Source of the DNA: Oscillospiraceae bacterium
Lineage (GTDB): Bacteria; Bacillota; Clostridia; Oscillospirales; Oscillospiraceae
Direction: 5' to 3'
NCBI GenBank assembly: GCA_009777775.1
Contig: WRLE01000006.1
Location: 1 to 64,000 of the forward strand
Length of the DNA: 64,000 nt
In this document: piece by piece, positions 51,321 to 64,000 of the stretch
Numbering within the stretch: position 1 is the first letter of the stretch
How the letters are laid out: each line of letters begins with the position of its first letter
Program-made: the position numbers and the translations under genes
The notes under the pieces: generated by a model
Databases searched by the model: none
Told to the model about the DNA's origin: nothing
What the model saw: only the letters and a program-made list of their open reading frames with translations

Positions 51321-51998
51321 GTGAAAAACATAAACGGCAGACATGAACTTAAATTTAATATCAATGAAACCGACATAGCAATATTGCGAGCAAGGCTTCG
51401 TATTGTTGCCAAGGCAGATGAAAACGCAATTGAAAACGGCAGGTATAAAATAAACAGTTTATATTTTGATAATTATAACGATAAAGCAGTATTTGAAAAA
51501 CTCTCAGGACAAAGCAAGCGCGAAAAATTCAGATTAAGATATTATAACAACGATACTTCATTTATTCGCCTCGAAAAAAAGAGTAAAATTAATCGTTTAG
51601 TCTTTAAGGAAAGCACTATGATAAACCAACAACAATGCGAAAGATTGTTAGATGGTGATTATAAAGTGCTTCTCGAGGGAAATGAGCAGTTGTTTTTAGA
51701 GCTGTACAGCAAAATCACATACCAAAATCTTCGTCCCAAAAGCATAGTTGTATATACAAGAGAAGCCTATACATATGAACCCGGAAACGTACGCATCACA
51801 TTTGATACAGATATTAGAGCATCAAACAATGTCTTGGGATTCCTGAACGAATACCATCCCACCATACCCTCTGCAAAGGCAATGGTGTTGGAGGTGAAGC
51901 ACGATGCTTTTCTTCCAAATGTCATACGAGATATGTTGCAAATCGGATGGCGCAATCAAAGCGAATTTTCAAAATATACCGCATCACGTATTATTTAA
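51321..51998 (+). CDS. VTC-domain protein (polyphosphate polymerase-like)
   Basis: A 225-residue VTC domain, GTG start. The tunnel-fold landmarks are RHELKFNIN, YKINSLYFDN, REKFRLRYY, FIRLEKKSKINRLVFKE, VVYTREAY, RITFDTDIRASN and VLEVKHDAFLP; these carry the basic and acidic residues that line the active tunnel of yeast Vtc4. It may make polyphosphate or bind a polyanion. It leads the VTC-DUF4956-CotH run, a grouping seen in many Bacillota. Confidence 0.9.
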   Translation: MKNINGRHELKFNINETDIAILRARLRIVAKADENAIENGRYKINSLYFDNYNDKAVFEKLSGQSKREKFRLRYYNNDTSFIRLEKKSKINRLVFKESTMINQQQCERLLDGDYKVLLEGNEQLFLELYSKITYQNLRPKSIVVYTREAYTYEPGNVRITFDTDIRASNNVLGFLNEYHPTIPSAKAMVLEVKHDAFLPNVIRDMLQIGWRNQSEFSKYTASRII

Positions 51999-52099
51999 TT
52001 GACATTTTGTTAGTGTTTTATCAATAATTGTAGTATTTTCAATATATCAGAATTTTTCCACAAAAGTATCACAGCTATTTTATTAACGGAGGCTATAAT

Positions 52100-52768
52100 A
52101 TGTTAGACCAATTATTCAGTTTCAACTTCCTGGACAAAGCAGCAAGCTTCTCCCTCATCGACATTGCAGTTGCAATGCTTATATCATTTTCCCTCGGTCT
52201 TTTCATTTACTTTATTTACACCAAAACATTTAAAGGAGTCATGTATTCATCATCATTTGGAATAACATTAATCACCATGACTCTCATCACCACATTAATA
52301 ATATTGGCTGTAACATCTAATTTGATAGCTTCCCTCGGAATGGTCGGAGCCTTATCAATTGTTCGTTTCAGAACCGTTATAAAAGAGCCACTCGATTTGG
52401 TTTATCTGTTTTGGTCAATAACGATTGGTATAGTTGTCGGTGTTGGACTTATTCCATTGGCGGTAATCGGGTCTTTAACAATTGGTTCGATATTAATTGT
52501 ATTTGTAAATCGTAAAGTAAACGAAACCCCCTATGTGGCTGTCATTAGCTGTGCGAGCGAGCAAGCGGAAGCACAGATATTGGGAATGCTCGGCGAGTAC
52601 ACTAAAAAACATATGATTAAAGCGAAAAGCATATACTCTGGTGGAATCGAGCTGACAGTTGAAGTCAGATTAATCGATTCATCCGTCCAATTTGTAAACT
52701 CATTACTTTCCATAGAAGGCGTAATTAATGCTTCGTTGGTTTCATATAATGGCGATTATTATATGTAA
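52100..52768 (+). CDS. DUF4956 membrane protein
   Basis: A 222-residue protein. Three or four hydrophobic segments lie at about residues 20-42, 52-74, 80-95 and 105-130. The conserved cytoplasmic loop SLGMVGALSIVRFRTVIKEP precedes LDLVYLFWSITIGI. A soluble C-terminal domain (about 140-222) follows. This is the DUF4956 family, regularly next to VTC-domain proteins. GGAGG precedes the ATG. A role as membrane partner of the VTC enzyme, possibly in polymer export, is inference. Confidence 0.9.
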   Translation: MLDQLFSFNFLDKAASFSLIDIAVAMLISFSLGLFIYFIYTKTFKGVMYSSSFGITLITMTLITTLIILAVTSNLIASLGMVGALSIVRFRTVIKEPLDLVYLFWSITIGIVVGVGLIPLAVIGSLTIGSILIVFVNRKVNETPYVAVISCASEQAEAQILGMLGEYTKKHMIKAKSIYSGGIELTVEVRLIDSSVQFVNSLLSIEGVINASLVSYNGDYYM

Positions 52769-52831
52769 ACTAGCAAACTAACATATAATGTTCACTAAAA
52801 CATTATATCATCGAAAAATGGAGACTTCGTT

Positions 52832-55798
52832 ATGATAACAAGCAGATATATCAAACTAGTAACTGCTTTATTAGTATGCATAAGCCTTCTAATATGCGCA
52901 TATATGGTTTTTGCTGCACAAACTAGGCAAATCGAACAAATATCCCAGACAGCGAAAATAACGGAATATCAAAAAAGGCTTTTCCAAGGAGAGCTCATCA
53001 TCATCGACATTCAAGTCCAGGAAGATGATTGGCAAACTTTGCTCGATAATGCCCGTGACAAAGATTGGATAAACGCAGATTTGATTATCAACGGCGAGTT
53101 TTTCAGTTTCGTTGGCATCAGGGTCAAAGGCAATTCCAACATCGCCAAAGTCATTTCTTCAGATAGCGATAGATTCAGTTTGCAAGTAAAGTTCAACAAA
53201 TATGTCAAGGGTCAGACATATTATGGTTTAGATACCTTCTGCCTCAATAATCTCATTTACGATGCAACATACATGAAAGAGTATATGGCATTTGAAATTA
53301 TGGACTATATAGGTGTACCAACACCCTTGCGAAATTATGCCAATGTATCGGTAAACGGTGAAAGCTACGGTTTGTACCTTGCCTTAGAAAGATATAACGA
53401 AGCATTTTTGGATAGGGTATATGGCAGCAGCTCGGGTCAGCTCTACAATGTTAAAAACACAAAAGGAAAAAACGATTTCTACGGTGGCTCACTACTCTAT
53501 AATGGTGATGATGTCAGTAATTATCCCGAAATCTTCAATAACAAAGTGTTTGGCAACAAATCCGATAAGCATGACAAGCTTGTTATTGAAGCCATTTTGA
53601 ATCTCAACGAGGGTGCAAACTTAAGCCAGCATTTTGATATAGATGAAGTTTTGCGCTATCTTGCAGCTCTATCTGTAATATCAAGCACCAACAGCTATGC
53701 TACTTACCAAGGACAAAACTATTATATCCATGTTCGAGACGGCAAGCTTTCCATATTACCTTGGAGCTTTGGACAGGCTTTTGGTGGTATACTACCCACT
53801 GATGAATTTTATGTATCTAAAATTATAAATATCCCAATAGACAGTCCTGTACTGGGTGTCGAAATGGTGGACAGACCTCTCATAAACAATCTTCTTGCTA
53901 TACCCGAATACAGAGACAGCTACCATATGTATCTTCGCCAAATAATCGATGGCTTTTTCGCGAGCGGGATTTTCGATGAAACAATAGCAATGCTGGACAA
54001 AAAAATCTCCCAACACATCATTGGAGATGACATTGGCTTTGCCTCATATGAAGCATATACATATGCAGTTGCTGCTTTGCATGAATTTGGAATACTGAGA
54101 AGCCTTAGTATCGAAGGTCAATTAAGTGGAATCATTCCATCAACTTTAGACAGCCAAAATATTGACAGGTCACTGTTAGTTGATGTTTCCCATTTCGATT
54201 ATTCGCCTTTAGCAGGTTCAAGCAGTTCATCTTCCTTGTGGTCTTTTGACAACATAAGCCAAATTATTAATCAGCATATAGGCGATATGAAGTCACAAAT
54301 ATTTTTAGAAAACGATGAAATCCGTTCCGACAATGCTGATATTATTATCTCAAATCAAACTGCAACGATAAAAAGCGGTGGTATTTACGAAATAAGCGGA
54401 ACGCTGGAAAACGGTCAAATTATCGTCAACGCAACTGCAGCGGATGTCGTTTTGATATTAAACAATGTGGATATTACCTGCACATATAGTTCACCAATTT
54501 ATATCTACGATTGCAATACAATAACCATATATACGCCCGAAAACACCATAAACATCCTCACCGATGGTGCGAAATACAACTTTGACAATAGACTCTTTTC
54601 CCAAAGTAACGACGAACCCAATGCCTGCCTATATAGTAAATCCGATATGTTCATTACCGGTGGTGGCACTCTCCATATCTCTGCAAATTATAATAATGGC
54701 ATCACTAGCAAAGACAATCTAAAAATTGAAAATGCCACTATACACCTATTAGCAAAGAATAACGGCATAAATGGCAGAGATAGCTGTGAAATAATCGACT
54801 CGGACATATTGGTGCAATGCGGGGGTGATGCGATTCGTTCCACATATGATATGGACGATACTCGCGGTATAGTTTCGATATCAAATTCCACTCTAAACTT
54901 GAATGCAGGCAAAGACGGCATATCCGCACAAACTCATTTGTCGATTTTCAGCGGCGACATAAAAATCATAAGCGGTGGCGGTAGCACAAATCGCACTTCA
55001 TCTTCATATAGCACAAAAGGCATGAAAGCAGGTAAGATTATCGAAATAAGCGGAGGTGTAATATCAATCGATAGTTCCGATGACGGTATACACTGCGATG
55101 ATACTATAGATATTTCCGAAGGGCATATCACGATTTCAGCAAAGGACGATGGAATTCACGCAGATAAGATAATAAACATATCAGGCGGTTTTATTGATAT
55201 AGTCACATCATATGAAGGTATCGAAGGTAGAGAAATTAACATTTCTGGCGGCTACATTAAAATTTTTGCTATCGACGATGCGATTTCCTGTGCCAGTCCG
55301 CAAGTATCACATAGCGGTTTTTTTGACATAACCCGCTATCAGCCAACAAATAACGAAAAACTCTCAGTTCACATCAGCGGAGGTTATGTAGAAATATATT
55401 CCACAGGCGACGGTATAGATTCCAATGGTTCTCTCATTATAAGCGGCGGTACAGTTATCTCGATTATAAATGCCGCTGGTATCCCAGGCAGTTTCGCCAT
55501 AGATACCGATGGTGGTTTCACCCTAACCGGCGGAACGGTTATAGCTGGAGGTACAGCAGCAATTTATCAATTTCCAGTCAATTCGCCTTTAAGCTCCATC
55601 AGCGTTCCCAATGTAACTGAAGGTATGCATATACTGATAAAATCTCCCTCCGAAATCATATTCGACTACACAGCAGACCACGATGCTACCTCAACAATCT
55701 TTTTCCACGAAAAACTAATTGACGGTGATATATACACTGTTGTTTTAAACGGCATAGAGTCAGAAACAACAGCCGGAACCAGAAGACTCCCTCGATAA
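52832..55798 (+). CDS. CotH-kinase-family protein with beta-helix/carbohydrate-binding region
   Basis: A 988-residue protein with one N-terminal membrane segment (residues 8-28). A CotH-like domain (about 50-400) has FVGIRVKGNSN, YGLDTFCLNN, YMKEYMAFEIMDYIGVPTP, VSVNGESYGLYLALERY and ILPWSFGQAFGG. The C-terminal 500 residues are repeat-rich with ISGGxIxI, SSDDGIHCDDTIDIS and AKDDGIHADKIINISGG, as in DUF4353/right-handed beta-helix proteins. CotH kinases phosphorylate spore-coat proteins in Bacillus. Here it is probably outside the cell and acts with the VTC and DUF4956 products 64 bases upstream. Confidence 0.88.
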   Translation: MITSRYIKLVTALLVCISLLICAYMVFAAQTRQIEQISQTAKITEYQKRLFQGELIIIDIQVQEDDWQTLLDNARDKDWINADLIINGEFFSFVGIRVKGNSNIAKVISSDSDRFSLQVKFNKYVKGQTYYGLDTFCLNNLIYDATYMKEYMAFEIMDYIGVPTPLRNYANVSVNGESYGLYLALERYNEAFLDRVYGSSSGQLYNVKNTKGKNDFYGGSLLYNGDDVSNYPEIFNNKVFGNKSDKHDKLVIEAILNLNEGANLSQHFDIDEVLRYLAALSVISSTNSYATYQGQNYYIHVRDGKLSILPWSFGQAFGGILPTDEFYVSKIINIPIDSPVLGVEMVDRPLINNLLAIPEYRDSYHMYLRQIIDGFFASGIFDETIAMLDKKISQHIIGDDIGFASYEAYTYAVAALHEFGILRSLSIEGQLSGIIPSTLDSQNIDRSLLVDVSHFDYSPLAGSSSSSSLWSFDNISQIINQHIGDMKSQIFLENDEIRSDNADIIISNQTATIKSGGIYEISGTLENGQIIVNATAADVVLILNNVDITCTYSSPIYIYDCNTITIYTPENTINILTDGAKYNFDNRLFSQSNDEPNACLYSKSDMFITGGGTLHISANYNNGITSKDNLKIENATIHLLAKNNGINGRDSCEIIDSDILVQCGGDAIRSTYDMDDTRGIVSISNSTLNLNAGKDGISAQTHLSIFSGDIKIISGGGSTNRTSSSYSTKGMKAGKIIEISGGVISIDSSDDGIHCDDTIDISEGHITISAKDDGIHADKIINISGGFIDIVTSYEGIEGREINISGGYIKIFAIDDAISCASPQVSHSGFFDITRYQPTNNEKLSVHISGGYVEIYSTGDGIDSNGSLIISGGTVISIINAAGIPGSFAIDTDGGFTLTGGTVIAGGTAAIYQFPVNSPLSSISVPNVTEGMHILIKSPSEIIFDYTADHDATSTIFFHEKLIDGDIYTVVLNGIESETTAGTRRLPR

Positions 55799-55865
55799 AT
55801 CCAAAGTTCACCCCAGTCACCAAAATAGAACATATCTGGTAGTACAATATCTAGCCTTTGTCTTA

Positions 55866-55963
55866 TCGTTCTAGTACTCCCCGCAGTAGCGGAAGATGCT
55901 TGCATCATCAATTGGAGCTGTCAGTTAGTTCCCGTAAGCATCGTAGTCATAACTGGTTGTGAC
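55866..55963 (-). pseudogene. Rhs core remnant with two in-frame stops
   Basis: The minus strand reads SYDYDAYGN-stop-LTAPIDDASIFRYCGEY-stop, matching the Rhs protein segment ASYDYDAFGNLLAAPIDDAN and FRYCGEYWDD. It lies after the second RsiV-like gene and is the third Rhs end in the 55.8-64 kb tract. Flanks (55799-56020) show nothing else. Confidence 0.85.
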
Positions 55964-56020
55964 ATAAAGATTAAGTTAAATTATTGTCATGTAACAAACT
56001 CTCCTGAATATAAATAATCG

Positions 56021-57487
56021 TCAGTCATGTCGTAAATTATTTTCCATTACGTTAATTGGCTCACTATCGTTTTTTCTATAAAAAGCAGAATAAAATTCAT
56101 ATATTTGGCTGCTAGGTCCCTCTACAATTATTATATTATCTTCATGAATAACGCTCCAACCAATCCATTCAATTTTCGTATCATAAGCATCATAAAAGTA
56201 TGTGATTATACCGTCCTTTATACCAACAATAGCAACTCTTGGATTAACGCGCTCATACTCCTCTATTGGTATATGCGAAATTTTACTTCCATCAAAATAC
56301 TCTGTTGCTCTTACCACTATTACTATATATTTATCTGTGAACGCATCATATTCAATATATTCAACTTGAAATGGCTTATGTGTTCGAGCCTTAAAATATT
56401 CTAATGCAGCTAATTCGGCAGCTTCTCGATTAATGTCGTTTATGCCACACATTGTAGCCAGATTACTTGCGTGTAATAAAATGTCTTCATCATAGCAATA
56501 ATATTTATTTAATATGCTCGTAGAGCTTACATCATTGCAACCATTTGCTAAAAGTATTTCATCCCATATATCATTATCTTTTTTCATAAAATCTTTTAGG
56601 TCATCAAAATCGATAACAATTTCAGCATAAGAACCAAGTGCATGTAGTGTTGCAATTTTTATACCAAGATAACTATCAGTAAAGTAGCAAGCATATTCGG
56701 TTTCCATACTCTCACCATTTTGAATATCAGATAACTTAAAATTTCGCATCAGCTCCTCATCTGTGTTATCCCATATTATATAATCGAATGCTTTTTGTAA
56801 AATGTGATTATTATCAAGATCGATTATAGCATTTGTTTTAAATGCTTCAATAAATTCCATGTTTATTTCTATGAAGTCATCAAGTATTAGCAGATTTCCT
56901 GTTCTAAGGTCAAGGTTCAATGTTTGTAATAAATGATTGTCATATGCTGCACTTTGTTTAAAAAAATAAATTCTTTGCTTTATGCTCATAAAATTTTCAC
57001 TTAACCATGCAATTTCAAATGATGAATATAATCGTAGTCCAGTAACATTCTCGCCATAACTTGTCAATAAGCCCAAGGCATTATCATATAATAATTTATT
57101 GATTGAATTTTGAACTCCTACATCAGCTATATTATTAATTTGTGGAAACACGATATTTATATAATTTTTTATATAGTTATCGTGTAAAAAATATTTATGG
57201 GATTCGATTGTATAACTAACACAATCAAAGTAAAACTCATTTACTTCGCAATCGCATTCCACGTGGTATATATTATTAATTGATAATAATTGCGATATAT
57301 CATTATTATTTGTTTCTTCAATTAATACTCTATTGTCAAACACGCTACTATCAAAAATAACATACTCTCTAATGCTAGTCTTGTCGAAAATATCTTCTTC
57401 GTTGGATATTAATTGTTTTTCTTGCTTCCCACAACCAACAGCCAAAAGGACACTTGCTAATACAACGAATAAGCTTGTCTTTTTCAC
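56021..57487 (-). CDS. DUF3298 (RsiV-like) lipoprotein, candidate immunity protein 2
   Basis: A 488-residue protein, GTG start with GGGAGG upstream. Lipoprotein signal with lipobox LLAVGC (Cys about 19). Residues about 90-310 fit the DUF4163/DUF3298 plan of RsiV and PdaC: NIVFPQINNIADVGVQNSIN, LDLRTGNLLILDDFIE, then YFTDSYLGIKI and YAEIVIDFDDL. A C-terminal region of about 170 residues is extra relative to the paralogue at 59031-59945. The broken Rhs tail originally ended 14 bases upstream, so toxin and immunity were nearly contiguous. The immunity role is inference. Confidence 0.75.
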   Translation of the reverse strand: MKKTSLFVVLASVLLAVGCGKQEKQLISNEEDIFDKTSIREYVIFDSSVFDNRVLIEETNNNDISQLLSINNIYHVECDCEVNEFYFDCVSYTIESHKYFLHDNYIKNYINIVFPQINNIADVGVQNSINKLLYDNALGLLTSYGENVTGLRLYSSFEIAWLSENFMSIKQRIYFFKQSAAYDNHLLQTLNLDLRTGNLLILDDFIEINMEFIEAFKTNAIIDLDNNHILQKAFDYIIWDNTDEELMRNFKLSDIQNGESMETEYACYFTDSYLGIKIATLHALGSYAEIVIDFDDLKDFMKKDNDIWDEILLANGCNDVSSTSILNKYYCYDEDILLHASNLATMCGINDINREAAELAALEYFKARTHKPFQVEYIEYDAFTDKYIVIVVRATEYFDGSKISHIPIEEYERVNPRVAIVGIKDGIITYFYDAYDTKIEWIGWSVIHEDNIIIVEGPSSQIYEFYSAFYRKNDSEPINVMENNLRHD

Positions 57488-57501
57488 AATACCCTCCCTA
57501 A

Positions 57502-58980
57502 TTATAACGTTTTTTTATCAACAATTTTACGGTAAACAACACATTGAAATCTAAATATCTCGATATTATCATATCCCATAGATTGGCTAGTTTCTATATT
57601 TCCGTTCATACCATTGAGTTCCCACCAAAATCCTGAAGCTTCCCAAGCTCAGTAGCTTGCTACATACATAGCTGGATCAGCAGAATAAAATATGCCTGGA
57701 TCACCATTTTCTGTATAAAACGCTTTATAGTTACCTTCTCCCGTAAGTTGAATAAATCCAGCACCTCTGTATTTGCTTGTGTGTCCATCCTGTGTTAACC
57801 CTGTTCTTGATTCATGCATCGCTACACCAAGGAAGAATTGAATAAATTCGATTGATGTTATCCCATATCTCCAAAGCGTATAGTTTAAGTCAGATACAGA
57901 ATTTAGTGTAGCTACGGCATCAGAACCATTTGTTGTTCTATTTGTAGCAACATATATAGCTTGTAGTTGGTTTTGAGAAAACAATGCACGGTATACTCCT
58001 TTATTATCTGCTTTATCATAAACAACATAATCAGAGCCTTCTGCCAAGGTGTGTCTCTCAATATATGCGACTGTTCTCAATCTGTTCTCATATGATATAT
58101 CGGCACCATATAATGAATGCATCGTAATCGCTCCATTGATTGCAAGCATCGTATAGATGTCGCAACCGATATATAACCCATTGCTGTCAAACAAGCTCTC
58201 TGCATCCATGTTCAAGTAAACGATTTGGAATCTCATCAGAGCTTCTGTTGTCGCAGGACCAAAATTTCCTGTCAACACAGTATTGGGATTAGCAAAATAC
58301 CCAAAGTCCATCAAAAATTCTTGAAGAGCCCAAACTTCGCGACTCCCATAGTTAGATGAGCTTGGTACTAAACTGTGCGTCATTTGAATTCCATACCGAG
58401 TAAAGTTCAAATTTGCCAGCACTGGTGAATTGCTTGTTGAATCTGTGTTATTTATACTGTTTGTCTCTTTTATCGTAACAAGCATACCATAGGGACCCAC
58501 TCCCCAAAACTCCTCGAAGGTCTTTCCAGAACCAGTCCGCAGCCAGTCTGCGCCTTCGTTTTCACCGAAGTTTACCCCATTGTTTCCACTGCTCTGCTGA
58601 GATGCTCCACTTGATATAGGTGACCCATATGGTCCGACACCCCAAAATTCCTCAAAGGATTTGCCCGAGCCAGTCCTGAGCCAGTCTGCGCCCTCGTTAG
58701 GTCCGAAGTTCACACCAGTCACTGAATACCCCATTGGATCTTTGTACTTGATGGGGCTGTTGTGCGCATAGGTATACCTGTTGAGACTGAGCGGGTCGGT
58801 GTACCTCCCTAGGTAGCTATCTCTCTGAGTAAACCTTCCGGTGGATGGCTTGTAATACCTAGCCCTTAGGTAGTAGTTCTTCGTCTCGTCGTCCCAGTAC
58901 TCCCCGCAGTAGCGGAAGGGGCTCGCATCGTCATTGGGAGCAGTCAGAAGATTCCCGAAATGTCGTAGCTGTAGCTTGCA
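57502..58980 (-). pseudogene. Orphan Rhs C-terminal module with lysozyme-like domain, broken
   Basis: It repeats the Rhs end: RYCGEYWDDETKNYYLRARY, SLNRYTYAHNSPIKYKDPMG, two GVNFG-x-NEGADWLRTGSGK units, a peptidoglycan-binding domain (REVWALQEFLMDFGYF...GNFGPATTEALMRFQ), then a GH19-like tip (FLGVAMHES, YRGAGFIQLTGEGNY). A TGA at 57649-57651 replaces a Tyr codon (YVASY-stop-AWEASGFWW against YVADYYAWEASGSWW in the intact gene). Reading on, the frame continues to a TAA at 57502. Upstream, a few bases are missing near 58960, shifting the frame, and similarity ends about 58980. No start site is visible. Confidence 0.85.
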
Positions 58981-59030
58981 CTTTCACTGCACTGTAGCAA
59001 TGGCGAATAATAAATCATATGTTCCAACTA

Positions 59031-59945
59031 TTATGATTCTATTAAGCCAATCTCTACAAGCATCTGAGTAAATATTTTATTATCTGTACGTGCATAATCT
59101 ATTAAGTCTTCATACATCAGTTCAAAATGCATAATGCCACCCATTACGTTACCGACTGTCATCGTTATTCCAACTCTGTCGATACAATAATATGTATTGA
59201 TTCTTGAATTTTCACCATCTGCGCCAAACAAATAGTCAGTTAATTGCTCATACCCATACTCACCGCGTGCGTTACTTCTAATAAGATACTCAAACGTCGA
59301 TTCGCTTAGCATATATTTATCATTATTAAAGACTGCTTTTTCAATCATGGTATCTATAAAATCATTATCAATAATATAGAAGTCTCGCAACCGTAGTTTA
59401 TCCACTGGATATTTAAGATAAATATTAGTTGTTTCGATGTAGCTAACTTGATATGATGCTAAATCAGAATACCTATTACCAAAAAACAAAATACTAACAA
59501 ATTGGTTGTCGCAGTATGTTATTGTATACGAAACGTTAAAGCAGAGTCCTTCTACACGAGATATGCTGTCGTTTATTATTTCATTATATAAAACAATTTT
59601 CATTAGAGTATTTATCTTTTTTTGCTGGATACTATCATTAGGAATAATAATTTGTGGATAATAAATTTCAATCTCACCTCGATTATTTTCATTAAATGCA
59701 AAGTATCTTCGATTTTCAAACAAATAACTTCCCTCAAAAACAGAAAAAGCATCACCAATACTTTCATCGATTTCCATTATATCGTTTGATGATGTTTTAT
59801 AAATGTATTCACGATTGGAGATGTTCATAATATTTTTATAAACAGTTTCATTTTGGTTATTCGAGTAGCATATCTGCCTAATTCCATTAATTGATATGAT
59901 TGTTAAAAGCAATAACGATATCATAATAAAATAAAATTTTTTCAT
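59031..59945 (-). CDS. DUF3298-like membrane-anchored protein, candidate immunity protein 1
   Basis: The ATG at 59945 (MKKFYFIMISLLLLTII) with AAAGGTG upstream is preferred over a start ten codons earlier. The 304-residue product has an N-terminal membrane segment without a clear lipobox, so it is probably anchored facing out. The body parallels the protein at 56021-57487: EIYYPQIIIPND...QQKKINTL, VDKLRLRDFYIIDNDFIDTM and a late IMHFELMYEDLIDYA. That is the DUF4163/DUF3298 plan. It lies 156 bases after the Rhs stop and is very AT-rich. Confidence 0.7.
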   Translation of the reverse strand: MKKFYFIMISLLLLTIISINGIRQICYSNNQNETVYKNIMNISNREYIYKTSSNDIMEIDESIGDAFSVFEGSYLFENRRYFAFNENNRGEIEIYYPQIIIPNDSIQQKKINTLMKIVLYNEIINDSISRVEGLCFNVSYTITYCDNQFVSILFFGNRYSDLASYQVSYIETTNIYLKYPVDKLRLRDFYIIDNDFIDTMIEKAVFNNDKYMLSESTFEYLIRSNARGEYGYEQLTDYLFGADGENSRINTYYCIDRVGITMTVGNVMGGIMHFELMYEDLIDYARTDNKIFTQMLVEIGLIES

Positions 59946-60101
59946 AATAGCACCTTTAGTAGTTAGTATTATCATTGAATATTAACATATGGTAAGTATC
60001 GGCGAGACGATAATTGCATTTACCAAATCGCAAATTCGTCTCGCCACACCACGCTCTATTGTTCTTTCGAAATACAAACTAGTATGTATGACCTTAATTT
60101 A

Positions 60102-63100
60102 TCAACCTGGAAATATTTTTATAACTTCGTCGAATCGCTCTTTTCGATCGCCCCAATCTTCTGGTTCATATGCTGCGTAATAACTACCACTATTTGTAGC
60201 ATTTGATACAGCGAAGAATATGTCAATAGTACTCATGTTGTTGTTTTGACTTTGCATAATTTTGCAATTCATGTTGTTAATTTTCCACCAAGATCCAGAT
60301 GCCTCCCAAGCATAGTAATCAGCTACATATTGTGGCCCACCTGTTCCGTTTCCATATATATCTATGTCTATTATTCTTGAATTACCCATTTCCTTTGAAA
60401 ATATTTCATAGTTTGGTTCTGTTGATAGTTGCAAATAACCAGCTCCATAAAAAGGCCAGTACCATTTCTCCATTAAATAAGCCATTTGTTGATTGTAAGA
60501 TAAATAACCTGCTTCTACTAAAGCATCACGAGACTCATGCATTGCAACACCTAAAAAATACTGTATCAGTTCGATTGATGTTATTTCATATTTCCACAAT
60601 GTATAGTTAAGTGCAGCAACGACATCCTTTGTAACCGACCCTGCTAGGTGATGTTGTGTTAATGTAAAAATATCTCTTAATTGGCTGCTTGTTACGAGAG
60701 TTTTATAAACTCCCACTGTGCCAGCTTTATCATAAACAACATAATCAGAGCCTTCTGTCAAGGTGCGTCTCTCTATATATGCGACTGTTCTCAATCTGTT
60801 CTCATATGATATATCGGCACCATATAATGAATGCATCGTAATCGCTCCATTGATTGCAAGCATCGTATAGATGTCGCAACCGATATATAACCCATTGCTG
60901 TCAAACAAGCTTTCTGCATCCATGTTCAAGTAAACGATTTGGAATCTCATCAGAGCTTCTGTTGTCGCAGGCCCAAAATTTCCTGTCAACACAGTATTGG
61001 GATTTGCAAAATACCCAAAGTCCATCAAAAATTCTTGAAGAGCCCAAACTTCGCGACTCCCATAGTTTGATGTGCTTGGTACTAAACTGTGCGTCATTTG
61101 AATTCCATACCGAGTAAAGCTCAAATTTGCATGCACTGGAGAATTGCTTGTTGAATCTGTGTTATTTATACTGTTTGTCTCTTTTATCGTAACAAGCATA
61201 CCATAGGGACCCACTCCCCAAAACTCCTCGAAGGTCTTCCCAGAACCTGTGCGCAGCCAATCGGCACCCTCATTCTCCCCAAAATTGACCCCATTGTTTC
61301 CACTGCTCTGCTGGGATGCTCCACTTGATATAGGTGACCCATATGGTCCTACACCCCAGAATTCCTCAAAGGATTTTCCTGAGCCAGTCCTGAGCCAGTC
61401 GGCACCCTCGTTGGGTCCGAAGTTCACGCCAGTCGCCGAATACCCCATTGGGTCTTTGTACTTGATGGGGCTGTTGTGGGCATAGGTGTACCTGTTAAGA
61501 CTGAGCAGGTCGGTGTACCTCCCTAGGTAACTATCCCTCTGGGTGAACCTGCCTGTTGATGGCTTGTAGTACCTAGCCCTTAGGTAGTAGTTCTTCGTCT
61601 CGTCGTCCCAGTACTCCCCGCAGTAGCGGAAGGGGTTCGCATCGTCAATGGGAGCAGCCAGCAGGTTTCCAAAAGCGTCGTAGTCGTAGCTTGCTATGAC
61701 GCTGCCTGCGCTGTCTGTTAGCTGCACCACATCACCCCTACCGTTGTAGAGGTAGTAGGCTATGCCTTGGGCTATCTTTCTGCTGATGATATTACCAGCA
61801 CCATGCACATTATGTGCCATCTGGTTACCTGATGCATCAAGCTCTAGAGTGATGTTACCGTTTTCGTAGAGGTACCTGGTGGTTACAGATACGCCGTCCT
61901 GAGTGACGGTTTTTTCCGACCTTAGACCGTCAGCACCATAACTGTATTCGGCAATATAGTGGTCGTTGCTGACAGTCGTAGTCCTACCCCAAGCGTCGTA
62001 GCCGCTGATCTCGAACGTGATTTCATCATCGCTACCACTAGTCCCTGCTAAGCGCAGCCCAAGTGTTGCGGGGTCTGCACCAACGTCAGCCATGGTGGAA
62101 ACCATCATGGAAATCTGGCTGCCGTTGTTGTCGTAGTGATACTCGGTTGTCTTCTCCCAATAGTCCGAAGTTTCTGTGCTATCCACGAGCCTGTTGCGGT
62201 TGTCGTAAGCATACACGGTAATTGTATCTGAGTTGTCAATTGAGACGGTCTGGGTTTCCCTGTTACCCGCCACATCGTAGGCATAGGAGGTTTCCCTGCC
62301 ATCTGGCTCGACAACCAGCTCTATCCTTCCAAGGTCATCGTAAGAATAGGTAGTCTCGCCCTTCATCTCCAGCTTCGCAGTCATGTTGCCATTTCCATCG
62401 TAGGCGTAGTTGAAGGTGCTGAGGTAGCTCCCGTTTTTTGAGTTCGCCAATGTATGGATTCTGTTGTCGGCGTAGTAGGTGTATGTAGCCACTACACCAT
62501 TGGGATAAGCCATTGTCTGACGGTTGCCGTTGGGGTAGTATGTATATGTTGTCGTGTCGCTTCCACTTTTAAGCTGCCAGAGCCTCCCCGCTTTGTCGTA
62601 GACCCTGGTAACTGCGTTGCCCTTGGGGTCCGTGCTAGTCTGTGCAACATAACCCGAAGACAGTCCCGCCGTTATGTCGAGAAGGTAGGTGCTCAGCCCA
62701 ATGCCCGGCACATTCCTAGATATCATGCGGTTAAGGGAGTCGTACTGCATGACTGTAGTTCCATTGGAGTCGGTAACCGTGAGTACGTTTCCGTTGTCAT
62801 CGTAGGTATACCCCATGGATTGTCCACCAGCAATTGCAGAGAATAGCCTGCCGTGGATATCATAAGTGTATAATGTTACCGCACCGTTCTGATCTGTTTG
62901 GGTCTCCACGCCACCATCGGCGTAGTAAGTATAAACCATTGAATAAGCTGAGTCGATACCCGATGATGTCAACCCTCCTGGCTCAATCCTATGAGTAGGC
63001 AGGTTTCTAGCGTTGTAAACTGTGGTCATTGTATTGCCAGCGGCATCCGTATGGGATGTCATGTTGCCCGCGTTGTCGTAGCCGTATGTAGTTATCTCGC

Positions 63101-64000
63101 CAAGTGCGTTCTCAACCTCATAGAGTCTGCCTTGCCCATTGTAGCGATACTGGGTAGATTTGCCGTTGCCATCGGTTTTTACAGTGATATTACCAGCACC
63201 GTCATACTGCTGCCCAAAGGAGTTGCCCTCGCCGTCTATCGTCAGCTTCAGCCTGCCGTTCCTGTCGTAGCGGTACTCTGTAGCGTTGCCCACCGCATCT
63301 ATCGACCAAGTCTGGGCATTGCCGTCATTGTACTTCAATTCCTCGATTAATACACCAAGCGGGTCTCGCCTTTCCACTAGCCTACCCAGTGCATCGTAAT
63401 TATAAGACCATACATTGCCCAACCAGTCGGTGACCGTCTTCAGGTTGCCGTTTTTATCGTAGCCGTATGCAGTGTTCTGGCTGCGAGTTATATTGTTGAC
63501 ATCTTTTACTGAAATGGACGACACTTGCTTCCTATTCAATGCATCATATGTGACGGTTACCATGTTTCCATTACCATCGATTGTGTACCTCGGGTTGCCA
63601 GCCAGGTCGTAGCGGGTGGCGACCGTGATTGCTTCCGAGCCGTTTGCCGCGCTTTCCGTCACGGTGAGAACCCTGCCTTGGTTGTTGTATGTTGTTGTAA
63701 TGCGCCTGCCCATGCCGTCCAAGGAAGATGCGGAGAGACCAAGCTTTGTATACCTGTATGAAACCGTATATGCAGGTATGGTGGCATCACCCATCAGAGT
63801 CGCGCTGCGGAGTCCATTCATGTTGTTAAACTCATAAACTGATGTATTGCCATTGCCATCGGTGGATGTCTTCAGATTGCCGAGGTAGTCATATGTACAG
63901 GTCAGCGACAATACCCCGCCAAGCGTTGTTGTTAGGGCATTCCCCCTAGCGTCGTAAGTGAATATACCTGCTACAGCGTTGGCCTCTGTAACGCTGGAGA
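60102..64000 (-). CDS. Rhs/YD-repeat polymorphic toxin with PG-binding and GH19-like lysozyme tip (5' part off the window)
   Basis: At least 1298 codons; the frame is still open at the right edge, so the true start is outside. Counting from 63911: YD repeats (many YDxxGRL/YDxxGN units) run to about residue 720. The Rhs core end follows (FRYCGEYWDD, YYLRARYYKPSTGRFTQRDS, LNRYTYAHNSPIKYKDPMGY at about 820). Two GVNFG-x-NEGADWLRTGSGK units come next, then a peptidoglycan-binding domain (about 940-1005). The tip has FLGVAMHES (about 1120, catalytic-Glu position of GH19 lysozymes) and YGAGYLQLSTEPNY (about 1155). It probably cleaves a neighbour's peptidoglycan. Confidence 0.88.
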   Translation of the reverse strand, partial: SSVTEANAVAGIFTYDARGNALTTTLGGVLSLTCTYDYLGNLKTSTDGNGNTSVYEFNNMNGLRSATLMGDATIPAYTVSYRYTKLGLSASSLDGMGRRITTTYNNQGRVLTVTESAANGSEAITVATRYDLAGNPRYTIDGNGNMVTVTYDALNRKQVSSISVKDVNNITRSQNTAYGYDKNGNLKTVTDWLGNVWSYNYDALGRLVERRDPLGVLIEELKYNDGNAQTWSIDAVGNATEYRYDRNGRLKLTIDGEGNSFGQQYDGAGNITVKTDGNGKSTQYRYNGQGRLYEVENALGEITTYGYDNAGNMTSHTDAAGNTMTTVYNARNLPTHRIEPGGLTSSGIDSAYSMVYTYYADGGVETQTDQNGAVTLYTYDIHGRLFSAIAGGQSMGYTYDDNGNVLTVTDSNGTTVMQYDSLNRMISRNVPGIGLSTYLLDITAGLSSGYVAQTSTDPKGNAVTRVYDKAGRLWQLKSGSDTTTYTYYPNGNRQTMAYPNGVVATYTYYADNRIHTLANSKNGSYLSTFNYAYDGNGNMTAKLEMKGETTYSYDDLGRIELVVEPDGRETSYAYDVAGNRETQTVSIDNSDTITVYAYDNRNRLVDSTETSDYWEKTTEYHYDNNGSQISMMVSTMADVGADPATLGLRLAGTSGSDDEITFEISGYDAWGRTTTVSNDHYIAEYSYGADGLRSEKTVTQDGVSVTTRYLYENGNITLELDASGNQMAHNVHGAGNIISRKIAQGIAYYLYNGRGDVVQLTDSAGSVIASYDYDAFGNLLAAPIDDANPFRYCGEYWDDETKNYYLRARYYKPSTGRFTQRDSYLGRYTDLLSLNRYTYAHNSPIKYKDPMGYSATGVNFGPNEGADWLRTGSGKSFEEFWGVGPYGSPISSGASQQSSGNNGVNFGENEGADWLRTGSGKTFEEFWGVGPYGMLVTIKETNSINNTDSTSNSPVHANLSFTRYGIQMTHSLVPSTSNYGSREVWALQEFLMDFGYFANPNTVLTGNFGPATTEALMRFQIVYLNMDAESLFDSNGLYIGCDIYTMLAINGAITMHSLYGADISYENRLRTVAYIERRTLTEGSDYVVYDKAGTVGVYKTLVTSSQLRDIFTLTQHHLAGSVTKDVVAALNYTLWKYEITSIELIQYFLGVAMHESRDALVEAGYLSYNQQMAYLMEKWYWPFYGAGYLQLSTEPNYEIFSKEMGNSRIIDIDIYGNGTGGPQYVADYYAWEASGSWWKINNMNCKIMQSQNNNMSTIDIFFAVSNATNSGSYYAAYEPEDWGDRKERFDEVIKIFPG

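Follow-up and report, generated by a model that had tools for sequence, protein, structure and literature searches.

RsiV-like surface proteins as probable immunity partners of GH19-like toxin tips in an Rhs locus of an Oscillospiraceae bacterium

The first 64,000 nucleotides of contig WRLE01000006.1 (assembly GCA_009777775.1, Oscillospiraceae bacterium), the whole stretch of DNA that was analysed and hereafter the window, contain an Rhs toxin locus. In it, two C-terminal toxin tips resembling glycoside hydrolase family 19 (GH19) are each followed directly by a gene whose product resembles the lysozyme-binding ectodomain of RsiV. These RsiV-like proteins are probably surface immunity proteins for the GH19 toxin tips. 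All genes of the locus lie on the minus strand, in the order intact Rhs gene, RsiV-like gene 1, displaced Rhs tail, RsiV-like gene 2 and a 108-bp Rhs scrap; a re-reading of the open reading frames confirmed the order and coordinates given in the original prediction, which had been made from the DNA letters alone. The novelty lies in an RsiV-like fold being paired with GH19 toxin tips; the general type of system is already known.

The locus is best pictured as an interbacterial Rhs toxin locus that would have swapped its tip by recombination. The Rhs protein would be exported and bear a wall-binding domain together with a C-terminal GH19-like peptidoglycan hydrolase, and the gene directly behind each tip would encode a surface-anchored protein with the RsiV lysozyme-binding fold. 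This partner most likely binds its cognate tip outside the membrane, blocks the active site and protects the producer and its kin. The incoming tip would have displaced the old tip and its partner downstream, where the old tip decayed; the old partner gene, still open, may keep protecting against kin armed with the earlier toxin. Were RsiV-like proteins antidotes to bacterial GH19 toxins, warfare between bacteria would offer this fold a natural setting, and they would form a second immunity family for GH19 toxins beside XAC2610, with testable toxin-antidote pairs in Gram-positive bacteria.

GH19-like tips and their RsiV-like partners

A profile of six tips matched 38 solved sequences at an expectation value (E) of 0.01 or below (best E 1.3e-23), most of them named endolysin or chitinase and several named GH19. 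The tip is predicted to be a GH19-like peptidoglycan hydrolase of the endolysin/chitinase family. In GH19 enzymes an HE motif holds a catalytic Glu. Glu is invariant in all six tips at columns 72, 79 and 149 (window-tip numbering), which are candidates for catalytic positions. For the AlphaFold model of the window tip (mean predicted local distance difference test score 68), the three top Foldseek matches are phage-type endolysins, one of them named GH19 (E 0.05–0.4), and no match reaches E 0.001. The Pfam GH19 model matches three of the six tips, the window tip not being among them.

The two partners are homologous to one another (26% identity, E 1.9e-9). Searched against solved sequences, the partner profile has 3cyg (E 2.7e-5) and 5jen (E 0.0039) as its sole matches below E 0.5. 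The latter is RsiV crystallised with lysozyme, and the former is named as the best structural match of RsiV in the portion of PMC5014341 used here. The same portion describes RsiV as the anti-sigma-V factor, a lysozyme receptor and inhibitor that binds the active site of the enzyme. Foldseek returned six matches for the predicted structure of partner 1 at E ≤ 0.001, two each to RsiV, to DUF3298-titled proteins and to 3cyg, and its alignment with 5jen gives a Z of 12.0 over 191 residues at 4.4 Å. The ectodomain of the partners appears, from profile and predicted fold, to be that of RsiV (PMC5014341, in part; PDB 5jen). Unlike in RsiV, no cytosolic part is present in those partners whose N-terminus is readable. 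The partners are located behind toxin genes, and no sigma factor gene was recognised by eye in the open reading frame lists around them, the neighbours having been scanned with Pfam in part.

Pfam finds DUF3298 in none of the eight partners compared; the commonest family among them is PdaC (5/8, best E 6.4e-6). The original prediction had proposed profile searches for RHS, PG_binding_1, GH19 and DUF3298; Pfam recovers the RHS repeats and PG_binding_1, while GH19 is missed on the window tip and DUF3298 on every partner. The GH19 and DUF3298 links come from the profiles of relatives and from predicted folds, not from Pfam on the window proteins. A loose lipobox, the pattern that marks lipoproteins, is present in six of the eight. 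Partner 2 (P0003) has its single further match in its own genome in partner 1 (P0002), and the partner profiles recover these two genes only in that genome. Partner 2 also carries about 170 extra C-terminal residues (56021–56557), for which a sequence search returned no relative in Pfam or among solved sequences.

Linkage across genomes and scaffolds

Ten toxin-borne GH19 tips were compared: the two of the window, one each in genomes G276 and G168 and on contigs C49 and C74 of genome G037, one each at loci L064 and L066, and two at locus L022 (labels G, L and C denote the genomes, loci and contigs compared). They sit on several scaffolds, namely a displaced Rhs tail in G276, cassettes on C49 and C74, Rhs proteins in G168 and L066, a MuF protein in L064 and, in L022, one MuF protein and one similar tail. 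An RsiV-like gene lies directly behind the tip in eight of the ten, in this locus and in five other genomes. An RsiV-like gene is absent from the loci of all 14 stand-alone GH19 genes, of which nine are chromosomal and five are located in viral contigs.

The division into toxin-borne and stand-alone genes is the authors' own sorting. The G276 tip, on a displaced tail with an Rhs core end, was placed by eye, Pfam giving PG_binding_1 only; the C49 and C74 tips, which have no Pfam scaffold match, were placed by an N-terminal stretch (C49) or a linker (C74) common to other cassettes; one L022 tip accompanies a MuF domain, and the similar tail of the other has no Pfam match. A partial tip at the contig end of G037:C72 (L025) does not figure in the 10-versus-14 comparison. 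L063 and L065 were taken as G037 C49 and C74, L093 equals L069 in its GH19 protein, and each was counted once. Fisher's test gives p = 6e-5 for 8/10 against 0/14 and p = 0.003 for 4/6 against 0/14 without the four seed tips, values that overstate independence, to the detriment of the immunity reading, because the 14 stand-alone genes represent a few related groups and the two tips of the window are kin. The four non-seed partners were found by a profile built from the window and G037 partners only (E 4.6e-34 to 3.6e-10).

Seven pairs have an intact tip, the broken orphan pair being excluded. In each of them tip and partner are on the same strand with a gap of -20 to 168 nucleotides, and the divergence of one follows that of the other: the identities among tips are correlated with those among partners (Pearson 0.78, Spearman 0.73), and 13 of 5040 relabellings reach a Pearson value of 0.78.

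Other tips of the same arrays were also compared. L022–L025 of genome G037 are toxin cassette arrays with a common scaffold or MuF, bearing TNT, DUF6883, ribonuclease, phage-lysozyme and GH19 tips; in these arrays several tips are followed by small lipoproteins. At L021 9126–12999, another Rhs tail, this one with an M23-like tip and two other lipoproteins behind it, adjoins the GH19 module. Seven other tips are named by Pfam, one M23-like (L021, just under the Pfam cut-off), one TNT and two DUF6883 (L023), one ribonuclease (L024) and two phage lysozymes (L022, L025), and with the partner profiles no RsiV-like gene was found beside any of them. RsiV-like matches in L021–L024 occur only at genes beside GH19 tips, and an earlier profile returned no RsiV-like gene in L025. 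The proposal in the original prediction that the partners are immunity proteins holds up in this respect, an RsiV-like gene standing directly behind eight of ten GH19 tips and not behind the differing tips of the same arrays.

Within the order, the first tip profile matched seven of 394 genomes and the partner profile 16 of 394 (own genome included in both), and tip matches were found in 6/250 genomes of the window's family and 2/18 of the family of G037. The class-wide tip search matched the own genome only (1/391). One scan of genome contigs from 84,980 species returned seven loci, two of which were taken as G037 contigs. In viral contigs no relative of the window tip was found; a search of these contigs with six tips gave five GH19 genes, all without partners.

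Tip exchange and the displaced module

The intact Rhs protein comprises 3739 residues, and its gene runs on past the window, which holds the C-terminal 1298 residues. The full protein comprises subtilase, Kelch motifs, DUF6531, RHS repeats, PG_binding_1 and a C-terminal tip. RHS/YD repeats and an RHS core-associated domain precede a variable C-terminal tip, as in Rhs polymorphic toxins. The C-terminal part has a single further match in its own genome, the orphan tail. Intact and orphan modules share 93.8% identity over 971 bp (61694–60724 versus 58979–58010), a stretch made up of the core end, the linker repeats and the peptidoglycan-binding domain. From about 60750, the start of the tip, identity collapses, with no 60-column block above 68%. 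A tip exchanged at a sharp boundary, with displaced modules alongside, is likewise characteristic of Rhs polymorphic toxins.

The orphan tail is a pseudogene: its frame stops at 57649, within the GH19-like domain, at an in-frame stop, and its 3′ end is gone. The abrupt loss of identity at the tip and the broken orphan tip fit an exchange in which a new tip-partner module took the place of an old one and left it downstream. The 108-bp scrap points to a further event. The original prediction had described an orphan tail within a series of displaced C-terminal modules; both the sudden drop in identity and the leftover pieces of the core support the displacement, and the tail itself is now refined to a pseudogene.

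Comparable Rhs toxins with orphan modules, as treated in the parts of PMC3482391 and PMC3967940 used here, likewise have a conserved core, an exchanged tip, a downstream partner gene and leftover modules. They differ in that the lysozyme-fold toxin of PMC3482391 is a glucosaminidase, and chitinase and RsiV go unmentioned across most of its text. L064, with its MuF domain, GH19 tip and RsiV-like partner, resembles the MuF phage polymorphic toxins of PMC5576092, whose main text, as far as used here, makes no mention of lysozyme, glycoside hydrolase, chitinase or peptidoglycan.

Table 1. Features of the Rhs locus (window coordinates).
Feature	Coordinates	Strand	Evidence
Intact Rhs gene, 3′ part (YD/RHS repeats, RHS core-associated domain, linker repeats, PG_binding_1, GH19-like tip)	60102..63998	-	Pfam, frame
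PG_binding_1, putative peptidoglycan-binding domain ahead of the tip	60939..61052	-	Pfam PF01471, residues 983-1020, whole-protein E 1.1e-5
GH19-like tip (putative toxin domain)	60102..60749	-	Profile of 6 tips, Foldseek
RsiV-like partner 1 (P0002, membrane-anchored, 314 residues), proposed immunity protein of the intact tip	59031..59975	-	Profile, predicted fold
Displaced Rhs tail, pseudogene (Rhs core end, linker repeats, PG_binding_1, broken GH19-like tip)	57553..58979 (end approximate)	-	
RsiV-like partner 2 (P0003, lipobox, 488 residues, extra C-terminal region), proposed immunity protein of the displaced tip	56021..57487	-	
Rhs core-end scrap, trace of a further displaced module	55856..55963	-	108 bp, 77% identity to intact Rhs core end, E 2.7e-18

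Alternative readings, the wider family and neighbouring genes

Several observations weigh against the immunity reading. Pfam and Foldseek give weak matches or none for the window tip itself, and the frame of the partner beside the G037 C49 tip is readable only from part way in, being interrupted by stops ahead of that point. The two L022 GH19 tips lack an RsiV-like partner and have another lipoprotein instead. RsiV itself failed to bind mutanolysin, and an inhibitor of one lysozyme class is often ineffective against another (PMC5014341, in part). The peptidoglycan deacetylase PgdA also appears in the Z list of partner 1 (8.4), so that the fold may serve at the wall in a way other than inhibition. 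Of the DUF3298-like sites, 14 of 20 from the order search have no GH19 tip, nor do 10 of 13 from the family search; both sets include the window and G276 sites. A poorly resolved partner tree does not unite the partners in one clade.

The original prediction held that DUF3298-like genes found regularly without Rhs tails would speak against immunity, and for the wider family this is literally the case at the sites just given. This spread narrows the conclusions that the fold can carry by itself; the linkage as counted from the tips is untouched by it. Two of the tip-less sites (L061, L062) adjoin a sigma-70-family gene of the extracytoplasmic function (ECF) type, so that the wider family includes sensors and other proteins. 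Pfam was run on 20 neighbours of tip-less sites (19 upstream genes and that of Niallia), 13 of which have a family and seven do not, and no recognised toxin family was found among them; the neighbours of G330 (L051) and G810 (L110) were judged by eye only. The Niallia site comes from the G276 partner: the phage collection holds nothing that matches this partner, and the plasmid collection gave a single match, a distant gene of Niallia taxi with a gene for a HEAT-repeat protein next to it on the upstream side. On the partner tree, the toxin-linked label requires four changes against a shuffled mean of 6.6 (18 of 500 shuffles are as low), and none of 200 bootstrap trees (0%) gets by with just one change; the starred branches are compatible with one origin. 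One recruitment of the partners and several would both be compatible with a tree of this resolution.

FDGY motifs in the lipoproteins beside the two L022 tips presumably suggest XAC2610; when these lipoproteins were aligned with a third from L025, XAC2610 was indeed their best solved match, a weak one (E 0.023). XAC2610 is the immunity protein of XAC2609, a GH19 effector of type IV secretion in Xanthomonas citri (PMC10933484, in part). That pair resembles the present one in combining a GH19 peptidoglycan hydrolase that has a peptidoglycan-binding domain with a lipoprotein-box inhibitor encoded as its partner. The differences are that the toxin is here part of Rhs, MuF or cassette proteins encoded in genomes of Clostridia type and that the partner has a predicted RsiV fold; a weak likeness to XAC2610 extends to the partners of other tips in L022. 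Searches of open-licence papers, subscription papers and preprints being outside their scope, turned up no description of an RsiV-like protein conferring immunity to a GH19 toxin, and where the part of PMC5014341 used here speaks of an immunity protein, it refers to SdpI.

The tip might act on the producer's own wall, for example in the release of the giant Rhs protein, with the partner as a brake on self-digestion rather than a means of kin immunity. The stress laid on protection from self-intoxication in the part of PMC10933484 used here would agree with such a role. It is nevertheless a rather unlikely account, given that an old partner kept beside a decayed tip while tips are exchanged suits immunity against rivals or kin, and that the G037 cassette scaffold also carries a ribonuclease-family tip and others.

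That the partners are general wall-protection or signalling proteins, such as RsiV-type sensors or PdaC-type envelope proteins, co-expressed with the toxin by happenstance, is distinctly improbable. RsiV is itself an anti-sigma receptor, wider-family members adjoin ECF-type sigma genes at L061 and L062, and PdaC and PgdA appear among the Pfam and structural matches. Against this, all seven partners with a readable N-terminus start with a signal anchor or lipobox, with no space for the N-terminal cytosolic sigma-binding part of RsiV, the eighth being truncated; anti-sigma factors were rejected on this ground. A role as deacetylases was likewise rejected, no deacetylase catalytic family being present among the partners' Pfam matches at E ≤ 1. 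Partner divergence also tracks tip divergence, and the profiles found no RsiV-like neighbour for the seven other named tips. Chance adjacency or hitchhiking of a downstream DUF3298 gene, for which the preponderance of such genes away from GH19 tips could be cited, is very improbable and was rejected, since the linkage recurs with short gaps in six genomes on Rhs, MuF and cassette scaffolds and is absent at all 14 stand-alone GH19 loci.

A further proposition, speculative and itself unlikely, is that the lysozyme-binding fold of RsiV either serves as an immunity fold directed at bacterial toxins that cut the cell wall or derives from one. On that view the lysozyme sensor RsiV would be related to toxin antidotes, and bacterial toxins of the GH19 type might be among its natural ligands alongside animal lysozyme.

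Beside the locus, on the plus strand at 51321–55798, lie genes for a 225-residue protein, a 222-residue membrane protein and a 988-residue CotH protein; the last, the one of the three scanned with Pfam, carries a Cthe_2159 carbohydrate-binding domain. The 225-residue protein presumably resembles a VTC-domain protein, and we take the trio of VTC-like, membrane and CotH proteins to be a commonly met combination. Upstream of the giant Rhs gene, at L005 16495–18387, is a gene for a 630-residue protein that we assume to resemble RCC1 repeats together with dockerin-like and cohesin-like parts.

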